Positions 1,442-37,564 of a DNA stretch of 37,779 nucleotides are shown one piece after another. Numbering within the stretch: the first letter of the stretch is position 1; each line of letters opens with the position of its first letter. A program made the translations under genes and the position numbers. Location: contig JACRAL010000140.1 in NCBI GenBank assembly GCA_016213435.1, positions 1 to 37,779 of the forward strand, in the 5' to 3' direction. This DNA is from Bacteroidota bacterium (GTDB lineage Bacteria > Bacteroidota > Bacteroidia > Palsa-948). The notes beneath the pieces were generated by a model that saw nothing but the letters and a program-made list of their open reading frames with translations, made no database searches and had not been told where the DNA came from.

Positions 1442-2881
1442 CTAAAAATTTGTTAATGTATCAATCAATTCATTGTTTTTTAAAATTTCGATCTTAACGG
1501 CAATTCGTCCGTCAAGATTGTGGGTTGCACAGGAAAGACAAGGGTCATAAGCTCTGTAACACATTTCAATTTTGTTTATCAATCCCTGGTCATATATCCC
1601 GTTTTTTATCAGGTCAACTGCAGCTCTTTTAACCGACATATTAATAGGAGCATTGTTATGAGTAGTGCCAACAATAATATTTACATTTGTTACAAGACCG
1701 TTTGCATCGGTTTCATAATCATGGATTAAAGTTCCTCTCGGAGCTTCTACACTGCCAATACCTCTTGCCGCTCTTGGCGTTACCGGTACTCTTATATCTT
1801 TTGAAGTAATCGCCGGGTCTTTTAACAACTGAACAGCATATTCTGCATTGTAGAGTAATTCAATAAGCCGCGCCCAGTGATAAAGAAGAGTCAACTGGCT
1901 TGGTCTTCCAAATTTTTCTCTGAATTCCATGAGTTCTTTCTGTGCAAGCGGTGTTCTGATTTTATCGCAGACATTTAATCTTGCAAGTGTATTTGTCCTG
2001 TAAACTCCAACCGGGTTATCCAAATCCATAGAGAGTTTGCCGACTTTTTTCATATATGGGAATTTCAAATATGACCAGGGTTCAATATGTTCCCCAATAT
2101 AGTCAGTATAGTTTTCATATTTAAAATCTTCAAATTTACCATCGGCATCCATCATTCTGAATTTACCATCATACAGGTCAAGTGTTCCATCATCAGTTAC
2201 TGTACCGAGGAATCCTGTTTTAATTATGCCAAGTGATTTAACTGCATCAAGGTAGTTTGGGAAAATATTATTTTTTGCAAAATCAATGGAGAATTTTGCA
2301 AATTCCAACACTTCTTCTGCCAAAGGCAATGCAGTATCTCTTTCTTTTTCAGTCAATGGTTTACTGAAACCGCCTGGTACAGCAGTTACCGGGTGTATTG
2401 ATTTTCCTGATACAATTTCAAGCATTTCTGCACCGAGCCATCTTGCACGGATAACTTTCTTTGCAATATCCGGAACTTTTCCGGCAATTCCTATAACATT
2501 TCTAACCGACGGATCAGCATCGGGTCCCATCACAAAATCTGCTCCTGCAAGGAAATAGAAATGCAAGATATGCTCTTCACAATAAGCAAGGCTATTACAT
2601 AGTTCTCTTAGTTTTTTTGCAGCAGGAGGTATTGTTACCCCAAATATTGCATCATTTGCTTTTGCTGCTGCAAGATGGTGTGACCACGGACATACGCCGC
2701 AGATACTTGTAACAATTCTTGGCAATTCTTCTACCGGTTTTCCAAGACAAAATTTTTCAAAGCCCCTTAAATCTATTACCTGCAATTTTACATCATCAAC
2801 ATTACCTTCATCATTGAGTAATATCGTGATTTTGGCATGTCCTTCTAATCTTGTTGCCGGTTGTATTACTATTTTCTTCAT
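1442..2881 (-). CDS. mvhA: [NiFe] hydrogenase large subunit, group 3 (MvhA-like)
   Basis: A 479-residue catalytic subunit that binds the Ni-Fe(CN)2CO centre. The L1 region (RLEGHAKI, residues 11-18) and L2 region (ICGVCPWSHH, residues 60-69) supply Cys61 and Cys64. The C-terminal motif DPCLSCATH (residues 446-454) supplies Cys448 and Cys451. Cleavage is expected after His454, removing a 25-residue tail. The DPCLSCATH form and overall length fit group 3 (cytosolic, bidirectional, Mvh/Hox-type) enzymes. The usual Arg two residues before the first L2 cysteine (RxCGxC) is Ser here. The start is supported by a Shine-Dalgarno GGAGG 9 nt upstream. It follows mvhG by 19 bp. Its electrons should pass to MvhG, MvhD and HdrA. 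Confidence 0.95.
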   Translation of the reverse strand: MKKIVIQPATRLEGHAKITILLNDEGNVDDVKLQVIDLRGFEKFCLGKPVEELPRIVTSICGVCPWSHHLAAAKANDAIFGVTIPPAAKKLRELCNSLAYCEEHILHFYFLAGADFVMGPDADPSVRNVIGIAGKVPDIAKKVIRARWLGAEMLEIVSGKSIHPVTAVPGGFSKPLTEKERDTALPLAEEVLEFAKFSIDFAKNNIFPNYLDAVKSLGIIKTGFLGTVTDDGTLDLYDGKFRMMDADGKFEDFKYENYTDYIGEHIEPWSYLKFPYMKKVGKLSMDLDNPVGVYRTNTLARLNVCDKIRTPLAQKELMEFREKFGRPSQLTLLYHWARLIELLYNAEYAVQLLKDPAITSKDIRVPVTPRAARGIGSVEAPRGTLIHDYETDANGLVTNVNIIVGTTHNNAPINMSVKRAAVDLIKNGIYDQGLINKIEMCYRAYDPCLSCATHNLDGRIAVKIEILKNNELIDTLTNF

Positions 2882-2900
2882 ATTATTTATCCTCCATTTT

Positions 2901-3845
2901 TTAATTTTTCTTTGGTATTGGTCTTAATCTCCCTTGTGCGCCGACATATCTGTTAAATGTTGCGGCTCTGTCAGAAATCTCCTGTGCATTTAGTCCGATT
3001 GATGAGATTGCGCCCATCATATCAACCATTGGATTTGCATCTTTTCTTATAGGTCCGAAGCAGCCTCTGCAGGGCATAAGTCCTTTAATACATCTTGGAA
3101 TATGGGGTTGTTCTTCGCCGCTTGTCATGTAGCACCCTGTTTTTGTAACCGGGCCTAAACACAGAAATCCTTTTTCCATAAAGCATCTGGAACCAACCAA
3201 TTCTTCTTTTTCCAAATCAAGCATGCTTTCAAGAGGTCTTTTAATTGAAACAAGCGCTTTCTTTTCTCTTTTAACCGGACAATCATCACAAACACTTCTT
3301 TCCGGTAATGAAAATGGTTTTCCTTCAAGTAGTGAAACCAGCGCCTGTGCAACAATCTGTGGAGCCGTAGGACATCCCGGAAGATACACATCAACCTTTA
3401 CAATTTCATCCACAGCATATACTTTGTCAAGCAGCGGCGGAATATCATAATTTGGCGTATCAGCGCTGTCGGTTGAGACAGAACCTTTGTAAACTTTGTC
3501 ATATAGCTCCTGCAACGGAAACTGGTTTGCCAATGCCGGTATTCCACCGAAGCAGGCACAGGAACCAATGGCAATTAAAGTCTTACATTTATTTCTCATT
3601 TCATGTGCAATCTCTTTATGTTCCTCGTTCCTGATTGCACCTGAGATTATTCCGACATCTGCATCCGGAATTTCCAATTTGTCTTTTTCTCCTGTTTGTC
3701 CAAAATGTTTATGGTCTGCCAAAACAGGAATGTGGACAAATTCCAGTTTAGGTAATAAATCAAGCAGCGGTTCGCCAATATCAAGTATTGTTACTTCACA
3801 TCCGCCGCAACTTGCTAACCATTCTTCTGCAACTTTTACTGCCAT
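2901..3845 (-). CDS. mvhG: [NiFe] hydrogenase small subunit (MvhG-like)
   Basis: A 314-residue electron-transfer subunit carrying three Fe-S clusters between the Ni-Fe site and MvhD/HdrA. The proximal-cluster motif LASCGGCEVTILD (Cys13, Cys16) is followed by GSCACFGGIPAL and VYLPGCPTAP. The C-terminal half has further cysteine groups (CDDCP, FLCLGPVTKTGC, MPCRGCFGPI) for the medial and distal clusters. There is no Tat signal, so it is cytoplasmic like other group 3 small subunits. A strong Shine-Dalgarno (GGAGG, 7-nt spacing) fixes the start. Gene order MvhD-(insert)-MvhG-MvhA matches methyl-viologen-reducing hydrogenase operons, except for the genes inserted between mvhD and mvhG. Confidence 0.95.
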   Translation of the reverse strand: MAVKVAEEWLASCGGCEVTILDIGEPLLDLLPKLEFVHIPVLADHKHFGQTGEKDKLEIPDADVGIISGAIRNEEHKEIAHEMRNKCKTLIAIGSCACFGGIPALANQFPLQELYDKVYKGSVSTDSADTPNYDIPPLLDKVYAVDEIVKVDVYLPGCPTAPQIVAQALVSLLEGKPFSLPERSVCDDCPVKREKKALVSIKRPLESMLDLEKEELVGSRCFMEKGFLCLGPVTKTGCYMTSGEEQPHIPRCIKGLMPCRGCFGPIRKDANPMVDMMGAISSIGLNAQEISDRAATFNRYVGAQGRLRPIPKKN

Positions 3846-3875
3846 AATTAGTCCTCCATTTTTATAAATTATTAT

Positions 3876-4070
3876 TTATTGTTTTTCTAAAACGATTTCC
3901 GTAACTACTCTTCGTGTAAACAGAAAATATTTCTCTTCTTCCTGAACAGCGCGGGTTTCAAAATTGTTCGTCTCATATTCGGTTTTCATTTTTTGAACAT
4001 CATTTTCGTTCCCGTGAGTTTTACCATCCCACATAAATTTTTTTTCGTCGAAAAATCTTACATTATCCAT
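3876..4070 (-). CDS. Small hypothetical protein upstream of mvhG
   Basis: A 64-residue, strongly charged protein with no cysteines, no signal peptide and no recognised domain. It lies 30 bp upstream of mvhG in the same orientation and is the first gene after the intergenic region that carries the duplicated palindromic operator (4125-4174). The C-terminal half (about residues 45-64) alternates hydrophobic and charged residues, as in a beta-hairpin. No Shine-Dalgarno precedes it, unlike mvhG and mvhA. Its position suggests a small accessory or assembly factor for the hydrogenase, but the sequence does not show a function. Confidence 0.55.
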   Translation of the reverse strand: MDNVRFFDEKKFMWDGKTHGNENDVQKMKTEYETNNFETRAVQEEEKYFLFTRRVVTEIVLEKQ

Positions 4071-4124
4071 TTTTATTTATTATTTTTTTTAAATAATTAA
4101 TAGACTTACAATAATAAATTATAT

Positions 4125-4174
4125 GTAATTATAATTTTATGATTTCAATTTCATAAAAAATATGATTTTTATCC
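4125..4174. promoter_or_regulatory. Duplicated operator-like element, copy 1
   Basis: Aligned by eye, this 50-bp element matches 17689-17737 at about 45 positions with one single-base gap. Its core is the inverted repeat TTATGA-N8-TCATAA (4137-4156), followed by TATGATTTTTATCC. It lies upstream of the 64-residue gene and mvhGA on the minus strand, while the second copy lies upstream of the 5' end of the hydrogenase operon. Conservation of both arms suggests binding by a shared regulator; the identity is unknown. Confidence 0.55.
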
Positions 4175-4273
4175 ACTTTTTTTTTGTAAATTGCAAAGAA
4201 TTCTATCCATAATATTAACTGATGTTACGCGGAACATATTTTTTTATATTGCAGTTTATCAACATAAGTGAAA

Positions 4274-4558
4274 TCATATCGGCTGAGTAGTTTCGATTTT
4301 TTTTCTTCTGTTTTCAATGGCACGATACATTTTAAGAGGATTGGTTTTAATAATAAAATATATCTGATTTCCGTATTTATTTTTCATGTTATATAGTTCA
4401 TCTGCAAATGCACCGGAGAAAAATTTCACACGGGTGAAATCAATATTTATTTTTTCAAATCCTTTTTTGAAAAAAGAGGCAACAGTACGATTTATCTCTT
4501 GTGCTTGTTCACGCGAGAATAAAACCTGCTGGGTTATATTGATGTTTTTTGATGCCAT
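4274..4558 (-). CDS. DUF4325 (STAS-like) protein
   Basis: A 94-residue protein resembling the STAS-like DUF4325 family, with the core segment INIDFTRVKFFSGAFADEL (about residues 38-56). In that family a beta strand is followed by a Ser-rich turn and a helix, as in anti-anti-sigma factors. It directly follows the HATPase gene: that gene's TAA and this ATG are adjacent with no spacer, so the two are translationally coupled. DUF4325 is often fused or adjacent to a histidine-kinase-like ATPase, implying a partner-switch or nucleotide-dependent regulatory pair. It sits between mvhD and mvhG, interrupting the usual contiguous mvhDGA order. Confidence 0.75.
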   Translation of the reverse strand: MASKNINITQQVLFSREQAQEINRTVASFFKKGFEKINIDFTRVKFFSGAFADELYNMKNKYGNQIYFIIKTNPLKMYRAIENRRKKIETTQPI

Positions 4559-5107
4559 TTATGAGAGCAGTTTATAGAAATCAAAATTCCTGATTTTGTT
4601 ATTAACAAATACTCTAACGCCTTTAATCCGCTTTTTAGCCGTTTCAGAAGTTGAAGTGTTTTTAGTGGAAATAATTCGCCCTTTCCCTGATTCCACAATC
4701 ATTTTTCCTTCAAGGTGATTGGTTATTTTCCGAATACTGTAAAGTCCATATCCACGTTCTTTCTGGTTTTTAGTTGAAAGTCCGGATAGCGCATACTCAA
4801 TGGCTGCAATATCGTCTTTCGGAATAATGGACTTGGCAAGATACGTGTTTTTGATACCAATCCCGTTGTCTGTAATTAAAATGGTGAAGAAACCTTTATC
4901 AATATGAAGTTTCAGAGAAGTGGATGTTGATTTTGCATGCTCATTGATGTTGCTTGCCAGTTCATTTATTGAATACAATATAAATTCTTTTGAAGCATTA
5001 TTAATCTTTAACTCTATTATTTTATCTGTAACCTGATTGATAATTTCGCAGAGTTTATCAGGATGGATTTTTTTTTGAAACGAATATTTTAAAAATTTAT
5101 CAGACAT
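4559..5107 (-). CDS. HATPase-fold ATP-binding protein (anti-sigma/kinase-like)
   Basis: A 182-residue single-domain GHKL ATPase. The N box (ELASNINEHA, about residues 50-59), G1 box (ITDNGIGI) and G2 box (ERGYGLYSIRKI) of histidine-kinase-type ATP-binding domains are all visible. There is no dimerisation/phospho-acceptor domain and no sensor, which is typical of RsbW-like anti-sigma kinases or stand-alone switch ATPases. Its partner is probably the DUF4325 STAS-like protein encoded immediately downstream with zero spacing. On the minus strand a -7-like TAATTTTG (5136-5143) lies about 30 bp upstream of the start, so the pair may have its own promoter inside the hydrogenase cluster. Confidence 0.8.
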   Translation of the reverse strand: MSDKFLKYSFQKKIHPDKLCEIINQVTDKIIELKINNASKEFILYSINELASNINEHAKSTSTSLKLHIDKGFFTILITDNGIGIKNTYLAKSIIPKDDIAAIEYALSGLSTKNQKERGYGLYSIRKITNHLEGKMIVESGKGRIISTKNTSTSETAKKRIKGVRVFVNNKIRNFDFYKLLS

Positions 5108-5243
5108 TTGAAATGAAATACGAATATTGACGCAACAAAATTAAATAAAATTGCTTCGTTAAAAAAATATTTATCAACATAAATCTAATAAATTTGTAAC
5201 TTCTCAATACCCAACATGGACAAGCCACCGAATCCCATGGCTG

Positions 5244-5660
5244 TTAAACCTTATACGGGCTCGGTCCCAAATTTTTAATTTCTTCTGTAAAATCCTTCAT
5301 TACCTGTGCAAATCTTTCACCTTCTGATGCTGAAACCCATTCAATTCTGAATCTTTCATCCTCAATACCAAAATCCTGTAACATAAGTTTTATTGCTTCT
5401 GCTCTGCTTTGTGCTTTTAAATTTCCTTCCAGGTAATGACAATCTCCTATGTGACAACCGCAGATTAAAACACCATCAGCGCCTTTTGTCAAGGCATTAA
5501 TTACCAGGTTTGGATGAACCATACCAGAGCACATAACGCGGATTATAAGAATATTTGTGGGATATGGTAATCTTGATACTCCTGCAAGGTCAGCACCTGC
5601 ATACGAACACCAGTTACAACAAAAAGATAAAATTATCGGGTCAAAATTATTATTTGTCAT
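5244..5660 (-). CDS. mvhD: Hydrogenase iron-sulfur subunit MvhD
   Basis: A 138-residue [2Fe-2S] protein of the MvhD/FrhD-like family that links MvhAG to HdrA. Conserved cysteines appear in LSFCCNWCSYAGAD (about residues 11-24), in IIRVMCSGMVHP and in GVLICGCHIGDCHY. The start is fixed by an ideal Shine-Dalgarno (AAGGAGG, 7-nt spacing). Length is normal for the family. It lies just downstream of the HdrA-like gene, an order that fits direct HdrA-MvhD contact. The 5' neighbour is separated by 148 bp containing a heptamer tract. A 17-codon open frame (5185-5238, minus) starts 5 nt after its stop; its status is unclear. Confidence 0.93.
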   Translation of the reverse strand: MTNNNFDPIILSFCCNWCSYAGADLAGVSRLPYPTNILIIRVMCSGMVHPNLVINALTKGADGVLICGCHIGDCHYLEGNLKAQSRAEAIKLMLQDFGIEDERFRIEWVSASEGERFAQVMKDFTEEIKNLGPSPYKV

Positions 5661-5707
5661 ATATTATCCTCCTTATTTAGTACGAGATAAATTTATATAT
5701 TCTTTAA

Positions 5708-5752
5708 AAGACCCAAGACCCAAGTCCCAAGTCCCAAGTTCCAAGAACCAAG
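5708..5752. repeat. Heptamer tract (6-7 units)
   Basis: Units of the form AAGNNCC: AAGACCC twice, AAGTCCC twice, AAGTTCC, AAGAACC, then AAG. The phase is exactly 7 bp. It lies between the HdrA-like gene and mvhD. Confidence 0.75.
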
Positions 5753-5808
5753 ATTTACGCTACAAGTCCTCTTTGAATTTGGGGCTTTGAATTTGGAATT
5801 TGGGACTT

Positions 5809-8800
5809 TCATACTGTTTGTAATGCTGCTTCAACTTGTGCAGTAATATGTTCTAATGTAAAATTCCTTACATAAATACCTTTTTTTGGACAGGTTGCCA
5901 TACAAGTTCCGCAACCTTTACACTTTAGCTCATCTACTTCAACTGTTTTCTTAATTGAGCCTTCTCTCATATATTCGAACAATGTTAATGCTTTATAAGG
6001 GCATGGGTCAATACAGTAGGCGCATCCGTCACAATTTTCATCTACAACATTAGAAATCACAGCCGCAAGTTCAATTTTTTCTTTAGAAATTATTGTACTT
6101 GCCCTTGAAGAAGCGGCTAAAGATTGTGCAATGCTTTCATCAACTGTTTTTGGAAAGTGAGCAAGACCGCACAGGAAAACGCCGTCGTTAGCAAAGTCAA
6201 CAGGACGAAGTTTCATATGTGCTTCCAGAAAGAAACCGTCTTTTGTTAACGGCACTTTGAGTTTCTGGGCAAGGTCTTTGGCATCGTCTCTGGGAATAAC
6301 TCCAGTTGACAGGATCAAAAGATCTGTCTTTATATTTACTTTGGCATCCAGAACAGGATTATACACAGATACTTTTAATTGTCCATTAATTTTTTCTACC
6401 TCAGGTTTTTTATCTGCATTATACGCAATAAACCGAACATCTTTTTCTCTTGCCTTAGTATAGTATCCTTCATTAAATCCATAAGTTCGTATATCCCTGT
6501 ATAGGATAAACACATCAGTGTCGGGGCTTTTCTCTTTAATCAATAAGGCATTTTTGATTGCCTGCTGACAGCAAATCCGACTGCAGTATGGTCGCTTTTC
6601 ATCGCGTGAACCAACACACTGAATCATAACTACTGTTTGTTGTTTATGGCGTGTGCCACGTTGTGGCGTGGCAACGCTACTCTCGTGGTTTGTGGTTTGT
6701 CCCGACAATTGTCGGGATCCCTTTGCGAGATTTTCTTCTAATTCTGTCTGTGTTATTATCTTTTTATCCTGACCATACATATATTCAGTCGGCTTATATT
6801 CCTCTGCACCAGTAGCCACAATAACAACCCCGTGATTAATTGTGTGAACATTACCATCGGACTTAAATTCTGTTGAGAAATTACCAACCGACCCATCAAT
6901 CTTAACTATTTGTGAATTAGTGAAAATATGAATCTTAGGGTGATGTTTGACCATATCAATCAATGAATTTAATTTTTTTTGAGGGTCATCACCATTTAGC
7001 AGGAATTTCACTTGCTTCAGATTACCACCGAGAGTATCACTTTTTTCAAGCAGATAAACTTCAAAATACTGCTCCGCTAAATTAATCGCTGATGTAATAC
7101 CGGATACGCCACCGCCAATTACAAGGGCATCTCTGTATATTTTCACTTTTCTTTTATAAAGAGGTTCAAGGAACCGGGCTTTTGCTACAGCCATCCTGAC
7201 AAGGTCTTTTGCTTTCTGTAAGGCGAGCTTAGGTTCGTGCATGTGAACCCATGTACACTGGTCTCTGATATTAGCCATCTCAAAGAGGTATGGATTAAGC
7301 CCTGCCTCCTGAATAATGCTCTGGAACAAAGGTTCATGTGTTCTCGGCGTGCAGGAAGCAACAATAACACGATTCAGATTATGTTCATTAATTGCCTGCT
7401 TGATTTTCTCGCCCGACTCGGCAGAACAAGTGAAAAGATTATCCTCAGCATGTACCACATCAGGTAATGTCTTTACATAACCAACTACTTCAGGAACACT
7501 TATTACTCCACCAATATTTCTCCCGCAATGGCATACAAAAACCCCAACCCTTGGTTCTTCTCCTTTAACATCCTTCTCGGGTGGATACACTTTTTCCTTC
7601 ACCAATTTACCTTTTTCTGTATAAAGGAGCGAAAGTATCCTCGCGGCAGCAGCGCTTCCCTGCATAACGCTTTCAGGAATATCTTTTGGTTCAGTAAACA
7701 CACCTGTAATAAAAACACCTTCTTTTGGAGAATCTACAGGTGCAAATGAACTGGTTTCACAAAAGTCATACTTATTTAATTCAAGGCCGAACTCTTTGGC
7801 AAGTTTCTTCGCATTTCCGGGGGAGGTCAAACCGGTTGACAGTATAACCAAATCATATTCTCCGGATAATTTCCTGTCATCTTCAGTCAGATAATCAATA
7901 ATGAGATTATTTGTTTCAGGTAGTTCTTTGATGGAAAGCGGACGACATCGTATGTAATTTACACCGAGTTTTTGTGCTCTTATATAATACTCCTCAAAAC
8001 CTTTGCTAAATGCACGGATATCCATATAAAATATATCACATTTTAATTTCTCACCCTCATGCTCTTTAGCAATGATTGCTTCTTTTGTAGCATACATACA
8101 GCAGACGGCAGAACAATAATCTCTTTCGTGGTCGCGTGAACCAACACATTGAATCCATGCGATTTTTTCCGGATCGGTTTTATCAGAAGGTCTTATAATT
8201 TTTCCCTGAAATGGACCGGAAGCTGAAAGAATTCTTTCAAACTCAAGTGCTGTTATAACATTTTTGAATTTTCCATAACCATAATCTGGTTTTAAGTCAG
8301 GGTTAAAGAGATTATATCCTGGCGAGAGAATAATTGCCCCAACATTCAATTCTAATTTTTGTTCTTTTTGTTCATAATCAATTGCTTTTGCTTCACAAAC
8401 TTCCTTACAGATACCACATACATCATAATTTAAGTGGAGACAAGTGTTATTATCAATAGCAGGTTTATTAGGAATTGCCTGGGGATATAAAACATTAACA
8501 ACTGCTCTTTCATTTAATCCCATATTAAAAGAATCCGGAATGGGTATAGGAAGTCTGTCACTTGTGAAGGTTTGCACTTTTTTTCCTACGGGACAGATAA
8601 AGTTACAGGCGCCGCATATCCAGCACATTTCATTATGTTTACCAAAAGGAGTTTCCTGTTTTCTTCTGGGACCTCTTCCTGTAAACCCGATAGCGCTTCT
8701 GCCCATTCTCTGTTCACACATACGGACACAGAGTCCGCAAAGGATACAATCTTCATTTTTCTTCTTAATTCTTGGTTCTTTAACACCATATTCATCAGCG

Positions 8801-9117
8801 ATCTTTTTGATTGTCTCAGAATCAGGACATCGGACAAGAAGAAGTTCTGCGACAATTTTTCTTGCATTTCTTATTCTTTCGTTATCTGTGGTTACAGTTA
8901 TTCCACTAATAACAGGATAAGAACAGGAGGCTTGTAATGATGCAGCCCTTTCGGGAACCTGGACCTCCACAACACAGAGCCGGCAGGCGCCATATGGAAT
9001 AAGAGCTTTGTGGTGGCATAAAGTCGGTACTTTGATTCCAATGCCTTCAATTGCCGTTAAAAGAGTTATCCCTTCATTTACTTCAATTTTCTGGTTATTT
9101 ATCGAAAGAGTTACCAT
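5809..9117 (-). CDS. hdrA: HoxU-like ferredoxin / HdrA fusion, 1102 residues
   Basis: A large soluble iron-sulfur flavoprotein. Residues 1-70 form a [2Fe-2S] ferredoxin domain (Cys34, 45, 48, 64). Residues 120-180 add two CxxCxxCxxxC [4Fe-4S] sites, as in HoxU or the N-terminus of NuoG/HydA. Residues about 190-500 match the C-terminal part of HdrA (FNMGLNERAV, WIQCVGSRD, YMDIRAF, GPKDIPES-like VFTEPKDIPES) but lack the N-terminal Rossmann FAD segment. Residues about 520-1100 are a second, complete HdrA module with GGGVSG (668-673), IQCVGSRD (832-839) and two C-terminal [4Fe-4S] motifs (CDGCAYC, CKGCGTC). The missing N-terminal segment is found on the NuoE fusion at 14750-15619. Residues 801-827 are encoded by an inserted repeat. 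No Shine-Dalgarno is seen. It is the likely flavin-based bifurcation hub. Confidence 0.9.
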   Translation of the reverse strand: MVTLSINNQKIEVNEGITLLTAIEGIGIKVPTLCHHKALIPYGACRLCVVEVQVPERAASLQASCSYPVISGITVTTDNERIRNARKIVAELLLVRCPDSETIKKIADEYGVKEPRIKKKNEDCILCGLCVRMCEQRMGRSAIGFTGRGPRRKQETPFGKHNEMCWICGACNFICPVGKKVQTFTSDRLPIPIPDSFNMGLNERAVVNVLYPQAIPNKPAIDNNTCLHLNYDVCGICKEVCEAKAIDYEQKEQKLELNVGAIILSPGYNLFNPDLKPDYGYGKFKNVITALEFERILSASGPFQGKIIRPSDKTDPEKIAWIQCVGSRDHERDYCSAVCCMYATKEAIIAKEHEGEKLKCDIFYMDIRAFSKGFEEYYIRAQKLGVNYIRCRPLSIKELPETNNLIIDYLTEDDRKLSGEYDLVILSTGLTSPGNAKKLAKEFGLELNKYDFCETSSFAPVDSPKEGVFITGVFTEPKDIPESVMQGSAAAARILSLLYTEKGKLVKEKVYPPEKDVKGEEPRVGVFVCHCGRNIGGVISVPEVVGYVKTLPDVVHAEDNLFTCSAESGEKIKQAINEHNLNRVIVASCTPRTHEPLFQSIIQEAGLNPYLFEMANIRDQCTWVHMHEPKLALQKAKDLVRMAVAKARFLEPLYKRKVKIYRDALVIGGGVSGITSAINLAEQYFEVYLLEKSDTLGGNLKQVKFLLNGDDPQKKLNSLIDMVKHHPKIHIFTNSQIVKIDGSVGNFSTEFKSDGNVHTINHGVVIVATGAEEYKPTEYMYGQDKKIITQTELEENLAKGSRQLSGQTTNHESSVATPQRGTRHKQQTVVMIQCVGSRDEKRPYCSRICCQQAIKNALLIKEKSPDTDVFILYRDIRTYGFNEGYYTKAREKDVRFIAYNADKKPEVEKINGQLKVSVYNPVLDAKVNIKTDLLILSTGVIPRDDAKDLAQKLKVPLTKDGFFLEAHMKLRPVDFANDGVFLCGLAHFPKTVDESIAQSLAASSRASTIISKEKIELAAVISNVVDENCDGCAYCIDPCPYKALTLFEYMREGSIKKTVEVDELKCKGCGTCMATCPKKGIYVRNFTLEHITAQVEAALQTV
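6637..6717 (-). repeat. In-frame translated repeat insertion within hdrA
   Basis: An 81-bp segment, a multiple of three, encodes residues 801-827 of the HdrA-like protein. It lies between the expected continuous motifs EENLAKG and TVVMIQCVGS. It contains an 18-bp perfect palindrome (6700-6717, TCCCGACAATTGTCGGGA), two CAAACCA heptamers, a 7-bp hairpin (6654-6660 with 6667-6673) and an AAACAAC-type heptamer patch. This composition matches the intergenic repeats elsewhere in the window, not HdrA coding sequence. Confidence 0.75.
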
Positions 9118-9173
9118 AAACCTAAATTGTTATATTGCTAAATTGCTATTATATGTAAATTGTTAAATTGTTT

Positions 9174-9251
9174 GATGTTAGATGTTAGACGTTGGACGTT
9201 GGACGTTTTTGTATTCAACTTCTAACCTCAAACCTCTAACTTCTAACATAA
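9174..9251. repeat. Two adjacent heptamer tracts
   Basis: Five units of GAYGTTR type (GATGTTA twice, GACGTTG twice, GACGTTT) at 9174-9208, then five units of AACYTCT type at 9217-9251 (AACTTCT, AACCTCA, AACCTCT, AACTTCT, AACATAA). Both keep a strict 7-bp phase. They occupy the gap between the HATPase gene and the HdrA-like gene. Confidence 0.75.
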
Positions 9252-9260
9252 TCCTAAATC

Positions 9261-9677
9261 CTAAATTTTTACATAATCATAATTTAAAATTATTTCCGGA
9301 TGCGTAACTTTTAAACATTTAATTGTTTCATTCAAATTTCCAAGTGGCTTTCTGTCTATATGCCCCAGCCTGAAAGTAGCTGTAATTTTTGTACCTATGC
9401 CCGGTTCACTTTCTATTTTCATAGCTCCACCTGCTTCCTCTGCTGATTGGGAAAGAAAGGCTAAACCGAGACCAATTTTTTTACCTTTTTTTGTGGTAAA
9501 GAACGGACTTATAACATTCTTTTTTGTTTTGTCATCCATACCCTCGCCATCATCTTCTATCGTAAGAGTAAGTATGTCGTTCTTCTTGTCTTCCTGAATC
9601 AATATATTTATATTTTTCGCATTTGCTCTTATTGAATTTTCTGCAATATCAAGAATATGTAAAGAAATATCCTCCAT
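9261..9677 (-). CDS. Stand-alone HATPase of the hydrogenase regulatory block
   Basis: A 138-residue GHKL-fold ATP-binding protein. The N box (ILDIAENSIRANA), G1 box (EDDGEGM), F-box-like SPFFTTK and G2 box (KIGLGLAFL) of sensor-kinase ATPase domains are all present. No phospho-acceptor or sensor domain is seen. Small HATPases of this kind recur beside NuoE/NuoF genes in bifurcating hydrogenase operons, where they accompany PHP and DRTGG proteins. The preceding PHP gene ends in TAA immediately adjacent to this ATG (9675-9680), so the two are coupled. The role in hydrogenase control is inferred from context only. Confidence 0.82.
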   Translation of the reverse strand: MEDISLHILDIAENSIRANAKNINILIQEDKKNDILTLTIEDDGEGMDDKTKKNVISPFFTTKKGKKIGLGLAFLSQSAEEAGGAMKIESEPGIGTKITATFRLGHIDRKPLGNLNETIKCLKVTHPEIILNYDYVKI

Positions 9678-10409
9678 TTACTGAATAATTACCTCTCTTT
9701 CATTTTCTTTACGGAGACATTTCCTGATTTCTTCAAATGTGCTCTCTTTCATCTGAAAACAAGAGTATCGTTTGCCAATATCATTAATAAAATGTGCATC
9801 AGATGAAGTTATATATACAAAGTCATTACCTGTGTTAATTTTATCTCTCATAGAAGGTTCAATTATCTCAAGCGCATCGAGTTTTAGACCTTCAGGGATG
9901 AACCCGAGGTTTGCTATGATACTGAAACCCTCTCTGTCAACATGAGCGGCAATGGCAATACCATTAAATTTATGTATTAAATCAACCACTTCCTCAACAG
10001 ACATTTCTGTAGCGCCAATAAGCAACTTGTTATTAAAACCGAGAACCTCATCATTTTCATTGACAACTACCTGGAGGCCGTATCGTTCTTCATCATTAAT
10101 TCCATGTAAATTTAAGTAAACAGCCTCCTGCATCTGAAACAAATCTTTTTCGTTTCCGAACAGGCCCAGAACATGAACTTCTTCCTTAGTTGTAATCTCA
10201 ATACCTCCGATAACCTTTATTCCTTCTGTATTAGCAGATTTTTCCACTGCAGGAAAATTTTCAGCAGAGTTATGGTCGCATATTCCTATTATATCCAATC
10301 CTTTCTTTTTTGCCTCCTTTACTATATTTCCGGGAGACATTTCCAAATCTGCGCATGGAGAAAGACAGGTATGGATGTGCAAATCTGCCTTATATTCATT
10401 CATGTGCAT
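9678..10409 (-). CDS. PHP-domain metal-dependent phosphoesterase
   Basis: A 243-residue PHP-domain protein with the N-terminal HxH metal site (ADLHIHTCLSPC, His11 and His13), the second site DH (Asp45-His46), a Glu in GGIEITT, then AAHVDREGF and a C-terminal SSDAHF. These are the usual ligands of the trinuclear PHP phosphoesterase centre. The substrate is unknown; related proteins act on nucleotides or other phosphoesters. Start choice is between ATGs at 10409 and 10403. It is coupled with zero spacing to the downstream HATPase gene and belongs to the regulatory block shared with bifurcating hydrogenase operons of Firmicutes and Thermotogae. Confidence 0.85.
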   Translation of the reverse strand: MHMNEYKADLHIHTCLSPCADLEMSPGNIVKEAKKKGLDIIGICDHNSAENFPAVEKSANTEGIKVIGGIEITTKEEVHVLGLFGNEKDLFQMQEAVYLNLHGINDEERYGLQVVVNENDEVLGFNNKLLIGATEMSVEEVVDLIHKFNGIAIAAHVDREGFSIIANLGFIPEGLKLDALEIIEPSMRDKINTGNDFVYITSSDAHFINDIGKRYSCFQMKESTFEEIRKCLRKENEREVIIQ

Positions 10410-10431
10410 ATAATTTTGTATTTTATTTTCA

Positions 10432-10512
10432 ATTGTTATACTGTTATATTGTTAAACTGTTATATTTTTTACAGCAATTTAACCATTTAACCATTTAACA
10501 ATATAACCATTT
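10432..10512. repeat. Octamer tracts
   Basis: Four 8-bp units of WYTGTTAW type at 10432-10463 (ATTGTTAT, ACTGTTAT, ATTGTTAA, ACTGTTAT), then four units of AACCATTT type at 10481-10512. The second tract runs into the stop codon of the DRTGG gene (10511). Confidence 0.65.
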
Positions 10513-10846
10513 ACCTGATTCCAATTTCATATAACCTTCCTGCAACTTCGTAGGTTAATAAATTGCTGATCATTACAGGTATTTTTTCTTCTTTTGCTTT
10601 CTTCAGGGTTTCTTCCTCCGGCTTTCTTCCATTAACGATTATTATTCCGGAAAGCTGCTTTGAACTCGCAACTGCAATGATATTCTGATGGATTTGTAAA
10701 GTAATCCATATATTTCCTTTTTTTGGATTTGCAAGGACATCGCTTAATAAGTCCCCTGCATACCCTCCGGTAACTTCTCTTTCCAATAAATCTTTCCCTG
10801 TTTTCACTTCAAGGTTCAATGCTATAATTATATCCTTAAGCTTCAT
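10511..10846 (-). CDS. DRTGG-domain protein (first copy)
   Basis: A 111-residue stand-alone DRTGG domain. The family core reads EVTGGYAGDLLSDVLAN (about residues 24-40), followed by a strand-rich segment IWITLQIHQNIIAVAS and IIIVNGRKP. Known DRTGG domains occur next to CBS domains or phosphotransacetylase and are thought to bind a ligand, but the ligand is unknown. Here it lies between a CBS-HATPase gene and the PHP gene in the regulatory block. A second DRTGG gene (12078-12440) is only distantly similar in sequence. No Shine-Dalgarno is seen. Confidence 0.82.
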   Translation of the reverse strand: MKLKDIIIALNLEVKTGKDLLEREVTGGYAGDLLSDVLANPKKGNIWITLQIHQNIIAVASSKQLSGIIIVNGRKPEEETLKKAKEEKIPVMISNLLTYEVAGRLYEIGIR

Positions 10847-10890
10847 TTTCTATTTTCTGTTTTTTATTTCTATTTTTTCTCCTGCAAACT

Positions 10891-10916
10891 CTGTCAGGAG
10901 CTTCGCACTCTGACAG
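10891..10916. repeat. Palindromic element, 7-bp stem
   Basis: CTGTCAG at 10891-10897 pairs with CTGACAG at 10910-10916 around a 12-nt loop. It lies in the gap between the CBS-HATPase and DRTGG genes, beside a heptamer tract. There is no T-run on the minus-strand downstream side strong enough to call it a terminator. Confidence 0.55.
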
Positions 10917-10941
10917 GTTTTCCCACTTCCATACTATCAAA

Positions 10942-10976
10942 CTGATTACTGATTACTGATTACTGATTACTACTTA
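10942..10976. repeat. Heptamer tract (5 units)
   Basis: CTGATTA four times, then CTACTTA, in strict 7-bp phase. The tract overlaps the stop codon of the CBS-HATPase gene (10970-10972). Confidence 0.75.
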
Positions 10977-11908
10977 CTGCTTTTTCCCTCCTTATAAACA
11001 ATAAATTGAAGATTTGTTCCATTTCCAACTTTGGATTTGATTTTCATCTCGTCTGAATAATTTTTTATATTAGGAAGTCCCATTCCGGCGCCAAATCCCA
11101 ATTCTCTGACCCAGTCGGGCGCTGTGGAATAGCCCTGACGCATTGCCTGCTTTACATCAGAAATTCCCGGGCCCGAATCAATTGCATTTACCGTTATTTT
11201 ATCCGGCTGGATCTTTGCCACAAGTTCTCCTTCAGGAGTGTAAATAACGATGTTCATCTCGGCTTCGAAAGCTGCAATAGCAACTCTTCTTATTGTTTCA
11301 GGCAGGAATCCCAATCTCAATAAATTTTTTCTAATCTTACTGGTTTGTTCTCCTGCTTTTTTAAAGTCGCCTCCTTTTATACGGTATTTCAAAATCAGAG
11401 TAGAATTGTCAGAGATTACATCTTCAAAAATATGACTTGCCCTGTATCTGTGAATTTCTTCTTCATGATAATCAATCTCAAGTTTTTTCAGCAAACCCTC
11501 TATGATATTCCCCTTTGTTATAATTCCAACAAGTTTCTTTGTATCTCTGTCAATAACGGGAAACCGCCCATAGCCATCCCTGTCAAATTTACATACCACC
11601 TGAACAATGGGATCATCGGAATAAACTGTAACGACATTTTTTGTCATTCTATTCTCAATTTTTTCATTTATCCCTCCATCTTCAAGAAGGCAAATTATAA
11701 AGTCGTCTATGGTTACTATTCCAACCAATCTATCATCATCCACGACGGGTATTCCTGATATTTTGTTATCTCTGAGAATCCTTCTTACATCGTTCATTGT
11801 ATCATCCGGTTTTAAAGTAATAACATTATCACGCATTACTTGTTCTACCTTTAACTCATAAGTTAACTCCTGAGTCTTAGATGGTTTTTTATGATGTATA
11901 GGTTTCAA
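10970..11908 (-). CDS. Tandem CBS domains fused to a HATPase (anti-sigma-like)
   Basis: Residues about 20-75 and 85-140 are two CBS domains (VMRDNVITLKPDDTM..GIPVVDDD, then MTKNVVTVYSDD..RFPVIDRD), which usually bind adenine nucleotides. Residues about 165-305 form a GHKL ATPase with G1 DSGPGI and G2 GFGAGMGLPNI, close to RsbW-type anti-sigma kinases. It could couple energy charge to control of the hydrogenase cluster; that is inference. The start is uncertain. The longest frame begins with TTG at 11908 inside a heptamer tract, while the first in-frame ATG, at 11836, would clip the start of the first CBS domain. An N-terminus near 11908 therefore fits the domain better. Confidence 0.85.
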   Translation of the reverse strand: MKPIHHKKPSKTQELTYELKVEQVMRDNVITLKPDDTMNDVRRILRDNKISGIPVVDDDRLVGIVTIDDFIICLLEDGGINEKIENRMTKNVVTVYSDDPIVQVVCKFDRDGYGRFPVIDRDTKKLVGIITKGNIIEGLLKKLEIDYHEEEIHRYRASHIFEDVISDNSTLILKYRIKGGDFKKAGEQTSKIRKNLLRLGFLPETIRRVAIAAFEAEMNIVIYTPEGELVAKIQPDKITVNAIDSGPGISDVKQAMRQGYSTAPDWVRELGFGAGMGLPNIKNYSDEMKIKSKVGNGTNLQFIVYKEGKSSK

Positions 11909-11925
11909 GTTTCAAGTTTCAAGTT
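11902..11925. repeat. Heptamer tract GTTTCAA (3 units)
   Basis: Three exact GTTTCAA units in 7-bp phase. The putative TTG start of the CBS-HATPase gene (11906-11908, minus) lies inside this tract. Confidence 0.7.
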
Positions 11926-11963
11926 TTCATTCGCTTTGCTTCCCTACGAATTACGAATAATCT

Positions 11964-12093
11964 ACCAAGTACCAAGTACCAAGTACCAACTACCAACTAC
12001 CAAGTACCAACTGCCAACTACCTACTACCAACTGCCTCCCTGCCTGCCGGCAGGCAAGGCTGCCAACTGATTACTGTTTACTGTTTACTGATT
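11964..12093. repeat. Composite repeat: heptamers, palindrome, heptamers
   Basis: Ten consecutive 7-bp units of ACCAAST type (11964-12033) keep perfect phase. A 16-bp perfect palindrome follows (12041-12056, TGCCTGCCGGCAGGCA), then four ACTGNTT units (12066-12093). The last tract runs through the stop codon (12078-12080) and final codons of the second DRTGG gene. The composite fills the entire gap between two operon genes and is the longest such tract in the window. Confidence 0.85.
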
Positions 12094-12440
12094 TCAGAAT
12101 ACCCCATGAGTCCATTTTTATATAGTATGCCACAACTCTCAAACATTGGGATTTTCGTGACAAGAAGAGTTATTTTTTTCTCCTTTGCAAGGTCAACAGT
12201 TTCTTTGTGTGGTTTTTTCCCTCTCACAAAACATACTACATTGACTCCTGCGTTCTCAGCAGTATATACAACCTGTGGAGTCGTCAATCCTGTTAAAAGA
12301 AGGGTGTCAGGCTGTACAAAAGCCAGCACATCGCTCATCAGATCGGCTCCACAAGCCTTAGTAATATCGGAATTTAACTTATTTTTAACAATGCATAATA
12401 TTTCGGCATCAAGAACTGAAATTATTTTATCAAGTTTCAT
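12078..12440 (-). CDS. DRTGG-domain protein (second copy)
   Basis: A 120-residue stand-alone DRTGG domain with the core DITKACGADLMSDVLAF (about residues 25-41), followed by LLLTGLTTPQVVYTAENAG and VVCFVRGKKP. It overlaps the preceding nuoF gene by 4 bp (ATGA at 12437-12440), so it is translated with the diaphorase subunit. The last residues (SKQ-stop) lie in a heptamer tract, so the native C-terminus may have been altered by repeat expansion. Ligand and function are unknown; co-occurrence with CBS-HATPase, PHP and HATPase genes marks a conserved regulatory block. Confidence 0.82.
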   Translation of the reverse strand: MKLDKIISVLDAEILCIVKNKLNSDITKACGADLMSDVLAFVQPDTLLLTGLTTPQVVYTAENAGVNVVCFVRGKKPHKETVDLAKEKKITLLVTKIPMFESCGILYKNGLMGYSEISKQ

Positions 12441-14302
12441 TTTTCCTTCTTTTTGACAGGATAGGGTTCTTCTATTCCTGTTATATTTTCCGTTTCTTTA
12501 CCGGATACTTTAATAATAGCAGATACCTTTGGAGGACAGACATCAAGACATGTCCCGCATTTTGTACATTTGGACTGGTCAATAATATGAATATGTTTCA
12601 ACTCTCCTTTAATAGCACCTGGAGGGCAGTTTTTTAAACATAGTTTACATCCGGTACATTTTTCAGGAAGAATATAATATTTAATTAAATTTTTACAAAC
12701 AAGGGCAGGGCACCTTCTCTCCTTGATATGCGCTTCATATTCATCTCTGAAATATTTAAGAGTTGACAGAACAGGATTTGGAAGAGTTGTTCCAAGCCCA
12801 CACATTGAAGCATCCTTGATAGCATTACCGGCTTCCTCAAGAAATTCCAAATCCTCCTCTTTTCCGTTACCATTTGTTATGTTAGTCAGAACTTCAAGCA
12901 AGGCATCGCTTCCATCCCTGCAGGTTGTGCATTTTCCGCAAGATTCATCATTTGTAAACTGAATAAAGAATTTCGCTACATCCACCATACAGGTATCTTC
13001 ATCCATAACAATCATTCCGCCTGAACCCATCATAGAGCCGGCTTTTGTCAAACTCTCATAATCAATAGGCACATCAATCATACTGTGAGGAATACATCCT
13101 CCGGATGGTCCACCGGTCTGGACTGCTTTAAATTTTTTATTATCCGGAATTCCTCCGCCAATATCATAAACCACCTCCCTAAGGGTAATACCCATTGGAA
13201 CTTCTATAAGTCCTGTATTATTTATCTTACCGACAAGTGAAAAAATCTTGGTTCCTTTGCTTGTTTCAGTTCCTATTTTCGAAAACCAGTCTGCTCCCCT
13301 GTTTATTATAACCGGAACATTTGCCCATGTTTCAACATTATTAATAACCGTAGGACAATCCCATATTCCTGATTGTGCAGGAAAAGGGGGTCGTTGTCTG
13401 GGTTCGGGACCCTTTCCTTCAATTGAATGAATGAGAGAGGTCTCCTCTCCGCATACAAAAGCGCCTGAACCTTCTCTTATTTCCATATCAAAATTGAAAC
13501 CGGAACCCAGTATATTTTCACCTAGCAGTCCATACTCCCGTGCCTGAGTCAATGCAAGTTGCATTCGTTTTATTGCAAGCGGATATTCTGTTCTGGCATA
13601 TATATAGCCATGCGAAACGCCGATAGCATAAGCGCCAATTATCATTCCTTCAATTACTGTATGCGGGTCTGATTCAAAAACACTCCTGTCCATATATGCT
13701 CCGGGGTCGCCCTCGTCGCAATTGCAGATAATGTATTTAGGCGTCTTTTGTTCTGTTCTGCAAATCTTCCATTTAGTCCCTGTTGGAAATCCTCCGCCGC
13801 CTCTTCCTCTCAATCCTGAGCGAATAATTTCATCAATAACATCATCCGGCGTCATTGAACTCAGAATCTTTTCAAGAGCAGTATAACCATCCCTTGCAAT
13901 ATAATCATCAATTTTTTCAGGATCAATTATTCCTTTATTTCTTAAGGCAACGAGCATCTGTTTTTTGAAGAATGGAATCTCAGATAATAACGGAACCGGC
14001 TCTTTCTTTTCAGACGGCGTAAACATCAATTTTTTAACAGGTCTGCCTTTCAGTAAATGCTCCTGAACAAGAAAGGGAATATCCTCCTCGTTTAAAAATC
14101 CATAGAAGATATTATCGGGTTGAACCACCATAAGAGGTCCCTGTCCGCAAAAACCATTACAACCGGTTATAATAACAGAAACTTCCTTATCAAGCCCCTG
14201 CTTTTGGATTTCTTTTTCAAGTGTTTCTTTAATTCTAAATGCTCCGCCCGCAACACATCCTGTGCCTGTGCAGAGCATTAATTCTATTCTTCTTACTGCC
14301 AT
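12437..14302 (-). CDS. nuoF: NuoF/HydB-like FMN and Fe-S diaphorase subunit
   Basis: A 621-residue NAD(P)H-binding flavoprotein. Residues 1-90 are a thioredoxin-like [2Fe-2S] domain (Cys11, 16, 48, 52). The middle is the NuoF core with the FMN/NAD glycine-rich loop RGRGGGGFPTGTKW (about 168-181) and NCDEGDPGAYMDRS. An SLBB segment and the SCGKCTTCRDG [4Fe-4S] motif follow. The C-terminus adds two ferredoxin motifs (CTGCKLCLKNCP, CTKCGTCLDVCP), as in HydB of trimeric bifurcating hydrogenases. Length is typical for HydB. A perfect Shine-Dalgarno (AAAGGAGGT, 6-nt spacing) precedes the start. It should exchange electrons with NAD(P)+ and pass them to the NuoE domain and HdrA proteins. Confidence 0.95.
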   Translation of the reverse strand: MAVRRIELMLCTGTGCVAGGAFRIKETLEKEIQKQGLDKEVSVIITGCNGFCGQGPLMVVQPDNIFYGFLNEEDIPFLVQEHLLKGRPVKKLMFTPSEKKEPVPLLSEIPFFKKQMLVALRNKGIIDPEKIDDYIARDGYTALEKILSSMTPDDVIDEIIRSGLRGRGGGGFPTGTKWKICRTEQKTPKYIICNCDEGDPGAYMDRSVFESDPHTVIEGMIIGAYAIGVSHGYIYARTEYPLAIKRMQLALTQAREYGLLGENILGSGFNFDMEIREGSGAFVCGEETSLIHSIEGKGPEPRQRPPFPAQSGIWDCPTVINNVETWANVPVIINRGADWFSKIGTETSKGTKIFSLVGKINNTGLIEVPMGITLREVVYDIGGGIPDNKKFKAVQTGGPSGGCIPHSMIDVPIDYESLTKAGSMMGSGGMIVMDEDTCMVDVAKFFIQFTNDESCGKCTTCRDGSDALLEVLTNITNGNGKEEDLEFLEEAGNAIKDASMCGLGTTLPNPVLSTLKYFRDEYEAHIKERRCPALVCKNLIKYYILPEKCTGCKLCLKNCPPGAIKGELKHIHIIDQSKCTKCGTCLDVCPPKVSAIIKVSGKETENITGIEEPYPVKKKEK

Positions 14303-14305
14303 GTT

Positions 14306-14689
14306 TTAACCTCCTTTTTCTGAGCCAATGCCAATAGCATATTCTGTAACAATATTACCACCAATAATATGTTCTTTGAAAATCCTTTTTGCTTTATCAG
14401 TTGTCAGGTTACCATATTTGACTGATGGTGAATTCAGGAGTTCAACAGTAGCCATCGGTTCCATTGAACAAAGGCCTGCACAACCTGATGCTGTTAGCAT
14501 CACATTCTTTTCAGTTAAGTTTTCGATCTCCCCGAGAAATGCAGAAACTATCTCTCTTGCACCAGCAGCAATGCCACATGTTCCCATATGAACAATTATC
14601 TTGCTTTTATATTCTCCTTCTCTAAGGTAAATTTCCTTCCGTGCTTCTTTCCTTTTTTTTCTTAGTTCATCTAAAGTTAGTGGCGCCAT
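14306..14689 (-). CDS. Thioredoxin-like [2Fe-2S] ferredoxin
   Basis: A 127-residue member of the small [2Fe-2S] proteins found between NuoE and NuoF genes in HydABC-type operons. The motif VHMGTCGIAAGAREI (about residues 33-47) supplies one cysteine (Cys38), and TASGCAGLCSMEP (67-79) supplies Cys70 and Cys74. The residue expected as a fourth ligand, five positions after Cys38, is not Cys, so cluster ligation may be incomplete or use another residue. The gene ends 3 bp before nuoF. It probably relays electrons between the NuoE domain and NuoF. No Shine-Dalgarno is seen. Confidence 0.85.
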   Translation of the reverse strand: MAPLTLDELRKKRKEARKEIYLREGEYKSKIIVHMGTCGIAAGAREIVSAFLGEIENLTEKNVMLTASGCAGLCSMEPMATVELLNSPSVKYGNLTTDKAKRIFKEHIIGGNIVTEYAIGIGSEKGG

Positions 14690-14749
14690 AAATATATTTT
14701 TTATTTTTCATTGATTATTGATTAAAAAAAAATCAAAAATCAAAAGTTG

Positions 14750-15619
14750 TTATGCCATTGTTTTATATTTTTCAATAATTTTCGGAATATCCTTTGTAGA
14801 TAATTTACCATAAACATTATCTCCTATCATTGCAGCGGGTGCGAGACCGCAGCAACCAATGCATCTCACCGACTTAAGAGTAAACAACATGTCGGGAGTA
14901 GTTTCATTTTCTTTTATTTCAAGGACATCGCTAAATCTTTCCATCAGCCTTTCGCTTCCTTTCACATAGCAGGCTGTTCCCATACAAATATTTATTATAT
15001 GTTTGCCTCTTGGAACAATGCTAAAACTGCTGTAAAAGGTCGCTATCTTTAAGATATGAGATAGAGGATACCCGACTTCCTGTGAGACATATTTTAAAGC
15101 ATTTTCCGGAAGATAGTTGAATGTGGAATTAATTTGCTGAAGGATTGCCATCAGGGGACCTTCTCTATTCTTATTGAACCTGATTATTTCCAGAACCTTT
15201 TCCTCGTATTGAGGTTCAAGTTCCACTTTTGTCTTTTCAAGGAGCTGGACTTTATTTCTTGTCGGGCAGTTAGATACACATGTTCCGCATCCTGTACATT
15301 TTTCTTCATTTATGTATCTGGGTCTTTTATTAAGGAGCACTTTAAAATTTCCTGCCTCACCCTCTATCTTTTCAATATCCGATAATGTAATTATCTCTAT
15401 ATCTTTATGCCTTCCTATTTCAACTAATCTTGGCGCCATAGTACACATAGCACAATCATTAGTAGGGAAGGTTTTATCTAATTGAGCCATAACTCCCCCG
15501 ATGGAGGATTTATTGTCAACAAGGTAAACTTTAAGCCCTGATTCAACTAAATCTAATGCGGCTTGCATGCCGCTTATGCCGCCGCCTAAAACTGCTACTG
15601 CTCCTATTTTATCCGCCAT
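14750..15619 (-). CDS. HdrA N-terminal half fused to NuoE/HydC
   Basis: A 289-residue fusion. Residues 1-120 match the HdrA N-terminus: FAD dinucleotide loop LGGGISGMQAA (11-21), GGVMAQLDKTFPTNDCAMC (41-59) with Cys56 and Cys59, EIGRHKDI, then the [4Fe-4S] motif CTGCGTCVSNCP (108-119). The HdrA homology stops there. Residues 130-289 form a complete NuoE/HydC domain with [2Fe-2S] ligands Cys212, Cys217, Cys253 and Cys257. The absent rest of HdrA is what is found, without its own N-terminus, at residues about 190-500 of the 1102-residue protein. An ideal Shine-Dalgarno (GGAGGTGA) precedes the start. It lies 1 bp after the QmoC-like gene. I know of no described protein with this architecture. 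Confidence 0.9.
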   Translation of the reverse strand: MADKIGAVAVLGGGISGMQAALDLVESGLKVYLVDNKSSIGGVMAQLDKTFPTNDCAMCTMAPRLVEIGRHKDIEIITLSDIEKIEGEAGNFKVLLNKRPRYINEEKCTGCGTCVSNCPTRNKVQLLEKTKVELEPQYEEKVLEIIRFNKNREGPLMAILQQINSTFNYLPENALKYVSQEVGYPLSHILKIATFYSSFSIVPRGKHIINICMGTACYVKGSERLMERFSDVLEIKENETTPDMLFTLKSVRCIGCCGLAPAAMIGDNVYGKLSTKDIPKIIEKYKTMA

Positions 15620-15620
15620 T

Positions 15621-37400: not shown

Positions 37401-37464
37401 TGGGGTGCAGCCCCGCCCGGTTCATTGCGTCCCGACTATTGTCGGGAAGACCGCAAGTTCATTG
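37401..37464 (+). pseudogene. Truncated tRNA-Pro-like sequence
   Basis: Aligned by eye without gaps to the tRNA-Pro 22 bp downstream, positions 37402-37429 match the acceptor 5' strand and D-arm well (GGGGTG, then GCCCGG-T/C-TCAT-T/C-GCG). The anticodon arm is replaced by TCCCGAC-TATT-GTCGGGA (37430-37447), a near copy of the palindrome inserted in hdrA. The T-arm is only begun (CGCAAGTTC) and the 3' acceptor strand is absent, so it cannot fold as a tRNA. A 7-bp direct repeat, TTCATTG (37421-37427 and 37458-37464), flanks the replaced arm. Confidence 0.6.
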
Positions 37465-37485: not shown

Positions 37486-37564
37486 CGGGGTGTAGCGTAG
37501 CCCGGCTCATCGCGCCTGCTTTGGGAGCAGGAGATCGCAGGTTCGAATCCTGCCACCCCGACCA
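37486..37564 (+). tRNA. tRNA-Pro (anticodon TGG)
   Basis: The acceptor stem CGGGGTG/CACCCCG pairs fully. The D-arm is AGCGTAGCCCGGCTCATCGC, and the anticodon stem-loop is CCTGC-TTTGGGA-GCAGG with anticodon TGG at the loop centre. The T-arm is CAGG-TTCGAAT-CCTG. The CCA end is encoded (37562-37564). It reads proline codons. Confidence 0.96.

Follow-up and report, generated by a model that had tools for sequence, protein, structure and literature searches.

Probable gain of intergenic-type repeat DNA in a permissive loop of a Bacteroidota HdrA-like protein

The hdrA-like gene and its variable loop

The window, meaning the whole stretch of 37,779 nucleotides of a Bacteroidota bacterium that was analysed here (contig JACRAL010000140.1), encodes on its reverse strand an HdrA-like protein of 1102 amino acids (positions 5809-9117), recognised by its open reading frame, its Pfam domains (Fer2_4, Fer4, Pyr_redox_2) and a PDB match to HdrA 5odc (E=2e-168). 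The product is laid out as an N-terminal 2Fe-2S/4Fe-4S part and two HdrA flavin modules. This hdrA is absent from all six congeners in our collection (G001-G006) and present in the genome of the window (G000), a patchy distribution within the genus.

The reading frame runs uninterrupted across positions 6637-6717 (residues 801-827), where a preliminary description had seen an insert of 81 bp, or 27 codons, breaking into a conserved HdrA segment. Conserved segments do flank this site on both sides, but the site itself is a loop whose length varies across all HdrA homologues. In an AlphaFold2 model (residues 640-1102, built with a 43-sequence alignment) that is of low confidence at the insert, the latter appears to sit in a disordered loop of the second flavin module (approximately residues 800-827), with a helix on one side (790-799) and a strand on the other (828-835); pLDDT is below 50 at residues 805-824, versus a model mean of 81.7. 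The loop comprises 34 residues in the window versus mostly 9-24 in the other homologues from which it was extracted, the exceptions being L006 (49 residues), L066 (35 residues) and L029, for which the pattern match is not comparable. Matching at a lag of seven nucleotides reached p<0.01 in five of 60 HdrA loops (L004, L006, L046, L002 and L008), as against 0-1 at other lags, and heptamer tracts are found at this same loop in other phyla (L004, L006, L046, L008). The 49-residue loop of L006, on a contig labelled Actinomycetota, consists largely of period-7 units of the ACCGG type.

Composition of the 81-bp stretch

The stretch at 6637-6717 is a mosaic and not a single element, and its tract parts span 6633-6717. 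Read 5' to 3' on the coding (reverse) strand, it consists of a palindrome, two heptamers, a piece of 39 nt and a heptamer-like stretch. The perfect 18-bp palindrome TCCCGACAATTGTCGGGA lies exactly where it had first been noticed (6700-6717), encodes SRQLSG (residues 801-806) and is the sole perfect palindrome of this length in the window, with 0.2 expected from Markov-1 simulations. Next to it, two CAAACCA units (6686-6699) encode QTTNH, and on the far side of the 39-bp piece a remnant, TAAACAA CAAACAG (TAAACAACAAACAG, 6633-6646), encodes KQQ. The heptamer patches of hdrA are made of ACAAACC units; the patch TACAAACCATAAACAACAAACAG is present both in the window and in the sister species described below. 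Lag-7 periodicity of the complete 81 bp was not significant (p = 0.12).

The 39-bp piece CGAGAGTAGCGTTGCCACGCCACAACGTGGCACACGCCA (6647-6685) encodes ESSVATPQRGTRH and combines a GTAG head with a bulged 11-bp hairpin, the second hairpin of the preliminary description. Its predicted DNA fold has an energy of -12.1 kcal/mol (z = -4.2), and none of 200 shuffles was as good. GTAG stands at the foot of the hairpin, its last G pairing in the predicted stem (GAGAGTAGCGTTGCCACG..CGTGGCACACGC). The trinucleotide CCA occurs on either side of the piece, the edges of which are ambiguous by up to 3 nt. Two copies of this hairpin exist in the genome, and the second is intergenic (G000:C134:25579-25619), with a match of 83% to the one in hdrA across 45 nt (E=1e-5). 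A plasmid search gave no match. As the frame is open, the peptide is probably translated.

Comparison with the nearest relative

The closest relative carrying this gene (L002; L176 in our set, G040:C217) comes from a second MAG, which bears the label Bacteroidales; its contig measures 12.7 kb and is syntenic with positions 2805-16812 of the window at about 87-90% identity. A stretch of two small genes at 4274-5107, ATPase-like and STAS-like by appearance, is missing from this position in the sister contig. At the HdrA loop, the sister encodes EKLANGYLQTTNHKQQT versus ENLAKGSRQLSGQTTNHESSVATPQRGTRHKQQT in the window, and the two DNAs differ in frame at two separate places. Where the window has CCCGACAATTGTCGGGA, the sister has ACCTT, so that the window is longer by a net 12 nt at the palindrome, which the sister lacks; the 39-nt hairpin piece is likewise absent from L002 (+39 nt in the window), and no copy of it was found in the sister genome (G040) at up to 1 mismatch. 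Each difference is a multiple of three, and together they amount to 51 nt net, or 17 residues. Both heptamer patches, in contrast, are common to the two species, and the sister loop is itself periodic at lag 7 (p=0.002).

This comparison upholds the claim that repeat DNA of the kind found between genes lies in frame within hdrA, as the sister lacks palindrome and hairpin and both have intergenic copies, and it changes the size and limits of the insert. An element of 81 bp is ruled out, since the sister keeps the heptamer part, and 27 codons overstates the insertion because two events were merged with an older, shared tract. Position 6637 is not an element edge, and instead of the gap of exactly 27 residues that had been anticipated, the 89%-identical sister protein lacks 17. 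Since other HdrA loops are mostly 9-24 residues long, a gain in the lineage of the window is the simpler reading, and we infer that DNA was gained there rather than lost in the sister; this polarity draws on one close relative with hdrA in the data and otherwise on loop lengths in distant homologues.

Repeat tracts at the neighbouring intergenic junctions

The preliminary description had seen the same ingredients between the genes, and six intergenic junctions of the shared block do contain 58-136 nt more in the window than in the sister, nearly all of it short-period repeats that the sister lacks. Four are heptamer tracts, each with a lag-7 p=0.0005: 5680-5813 (lag-7 match 0.54), 9123-9266 (0.59), 10852-10987 (0.49, with ACTGATT units) and 11940-12030 (0.76, with TACCAAG/TACCAAC units). 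The tract at 10406-10511 has a period of eight, not seven (lag-8 match 0.61), and the one at 14690-14749 is made of short repeats in which TRF reports period 7 at 14710 and 14728. In the reverse direction, the sister has no internal insertion longer than 6 nt, two longer ones being alignment-edge effects.

A family of 18-bp palindromes

The exact sequence of the hdrA palindrome is unique in the genome, and it could have been taken for a singleton. When paired variants are allowed, the genome-wide search proposed in the preliminary description yields 33 copies of the family TCCCGAYARYTRTCGGGA in G000, while a reversed control gave 0 matches. The six congeners contain 0, 10, 23, 31, 5 and 20 copies, and some other families of the class up to 36. 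In fully palindromic variants the arm changes from T-A to C-G are paired. Many copies are intergenic and several lie inside conserved genes, where the palindrome is read in each of the three frames (SRQLSG, PIAIG/PITIG and PDSYRD); one frame of the T-variants contains a stop codon, so that SRQLSG can be encoded by C-variants only. The palindrome sequence was not found in the literature searched, the coverage of which was partial, so this is not proof of novelty.

Across 72 sites, no flank or tag was conserved beyond the 18 bp, which rules out an extended element around the palindrome. Nor was a clean target-site duplication found: repeats of 4 bp abut the palindrome at 7 of the 72 sites versus 0.6 expected, a weak excess confounded by heptamer tracts, within which some of them lie. 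Short direct repeats are enriched nearby (6-mers within 14 nt, 18 versus 2.0), and a period of seven exceeds background in the flanking DNA of G003 and G013, and marginally in that of G000. Palindrome and heptamer repeats are thus associated, though not proven to form a single element. We also considered RAYT-type transposases. Y1_Tnp (RAYT-like) genes are present, but the flanks examined contain neither hairpin nor palindrome, and the Y1_Tnp gene on C173 is flanked by GGGCTTTAGCCC instead; the link was not retained for these repeats.

Palindromes and heptamer tracts inside other genes

Copies within genes were counted after exclusion of those at the first residues of an ORF. HemL owes the residues IPITIG to the palindrome and is a net 7 aa longer than in a 91%-identical congener, which has 0 copies in its genome. 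An MBL-rhodanese protein carries it in frame with a net gain of 5 aa relative to three congeners. In RNase HII (L286), the palindrome falls within approximately 28 residues that are unmatched in PDB relatives; this insert also contains CCCCCTCACCCCCTTCAAAGGGGGA, another hairpin-forming stretch, making it a second mosaic like that of hdrA. Por_Secre_tail domains with palindromes were found in L245, L251, L255, L256 (two) and L288, and in several of these unrelated proteins the palindrome occupies a similar position in this type IX secretion sorting domain. The same SRQLSG peptide is found near the C terminus of L130. In DnaX (L254), an abhydrolase (L294) and SpoIIE (L258), the palindrome is in the gene, and an insertion was not demonstrated; the PDB alignment of DnaX has small gaps only.

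Among the HemL proteins compared (L193-L199 of G000, G001, G003-G006 and G012), congeners G003, G004, G005 and G006 have different heptamer tracts (p = 0.0002 to 0.009) at the loop that holds the palindrome in G000, and most other families have none. Because heptamer tracts recur at the HdrA loop among lineages and at the HemL loop among congeners, such loops seem to have been filled repeatedly.

Relation to known repeats

The preliminary description had drawn a parallel to the Rickettsia palindromic elements (RPEs). In the accounts given in PMC10969869 and PMC3733652, RPEs (Ogata et al. 2000/2002) are palindromic repeats that lie in frame inside unrelated conserved genes and also between genes, and are tolerated and apparently translated; their families are of ~150 bp (units of about 100-150 bp) with a conserved encoded peptide, and a CGTC tag marks RPE-4/6. 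The likeness extends to in-frame presence inside conserved genes and absence in relatives, seen here for hdrA, HemL and the rhodanese, and to the in-frame copies in RNase HII and the secretion tails. However, the palindrome family measures 18 bp and has no conserved flank, tag or single peptide, heptamer tracts form part of the mosaic in hdrA, and the phylum is different.

REPs tagged with GTAG/CGTC are small hairpins that are mostly intergenic, with copies in genes encoding 20-30 residues (PMC3733652). The 39-bp piece resembles them in its GTAG head at the stem foot beside a hairpin of 20-40 bp, yet its two genomic copies are far from a high copy number and the RAYT-like genes are not flanked by it, and the 18-bp palindrome bears no tag at either end. 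TAACTGA heptamer tracts of Bacteroidetes, cyanobacteria and Beggiatoaceae are intergenic and vary between close relatives, the few copies in genes being mostly at protein ends (PMC4679880). The four junction tracts of the window that are missing in the sister are of this period-7 intergenic kind; in contrast, the tracts reported here also occupy internal loops of HdrA and HemL, differ in unit sequence between species and lie next to palindromes. Overall, these repeats behave like RPEs and intragenic REPs, while the palindrome departs from both in length, peptide and tag.

Origin of the insert

We consider it very probable that a permissive HdrA loop received repeat DNA of the intergenic type while the enzyme gene stayed open. 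The loop would first have held a heptamer tract, common to the sister species, and in the lineage of the window it would then have acquired two more pieces without loss of frame, an 18-bp palindrome of the family (net +12 nt) and the 39-bp REP-like hairpin (+39 nt). Repeat DNA may arise or land at many sites and would be free to persist between genes; copies in genes could be the survivors of a mainly intergenic insertion process, retained where frame and loop permit. The likeliest candidates for their spread are template switching at hairpins during replication or a transposase of the REP type that acts in trans. The encoded peptide is presumably made and harmless.

Two other explanations are both rather unlikely. 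The palindromes might be functional protein-binding or structural DNA sites (for a nucleoid protein, modification, or terminator-like) under selection, their position in genes being incidental. The strong conservation of 18 bp without their flank and the T-A and C-G variants that keep the arms complementary would fit such sites, and so would copy numbers differing widely among congeners; but congeners with 0 and 5 copies are hard to reconcile with an essential site, and loops larger by several codons in HemL, the rhodanese and hdrA are not needed by site selection. About equally doubtful is that the whole insert was built locally, by replication slippage and hairpin-templated error, with nothing copied from elsewhere. 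The heptamer patch shared with the sister, surrounded by similar units, suits this explanation, and the HemL-loop heptamer units differ among species as slippage and drift would give. Slippage is nevertheless insufficient, because it cannot produce the same sequence at distant sites, and the near-identical palindrome is found at 33 sites and the hairpin in the intergenic copy.

It is highly improbable that the 27 residues are a true extension of HdrA, conserved for a function. The open frame and the two net changes in multiples of three would agree with it, yet none of the ~40 displayed homologues shares the residues, the sister manages without 17 of them, and the loop is variable in length and sequence and modelled as disordered. 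An artefact of assembly or binning, with the insert misassembled or the contig foreign, has an equally slim chance: the genome is at contig level and hdrA is absent from six congeners, but the syntenic block recurs at 88% in a second MAG, each of the six congeners matches the contig elsewhere at 68-74%, and copies of the repeat family are spread over the genome.

Beyond the insertion of intergenic-type repeat DNA into this loop, we tentatively raise the unlikely possibility of an active process in these Bacteroidales that builds repeat modules (period-7 tracts with changing units, often with an 18-bp palindrome near) at intergenic junctions and in permissive protein loops, in which the step of seven and not the sequence would be inherited. 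If so, a fixed-length enzyme or template would be a better candidate than ordinary slippage or a classical transposon.

Most accounts of palindromes that code for protein concern Rickettsia, or the tagged REPs of certain other bacteria. In these Bacteroidales, ordinary enzyme loops and secretion tails contain heptamer tracts and a family of short palindromes lacking a tag, and congeneric species with different tracts at one loop offer natural empty, filled and refilled sites, on which the conversion of repeat DNA into protein, and the tolerance of individual loops for it, can be tested. Caution is warranted in reading lineage-specific loops of these proteins as functional, as some may be derived from repeats.

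An Rfam scan of the window returned a single family hit, a tRNA. A relative of the palindrome, TCCCGACTATTGTCGGGA (37430-37447), occupies the anticodon-arm position of a truncated tRNA-Pro-like copy (37402-37460), which lies just upstream of an intact tRNA-Pro (37486-37564).
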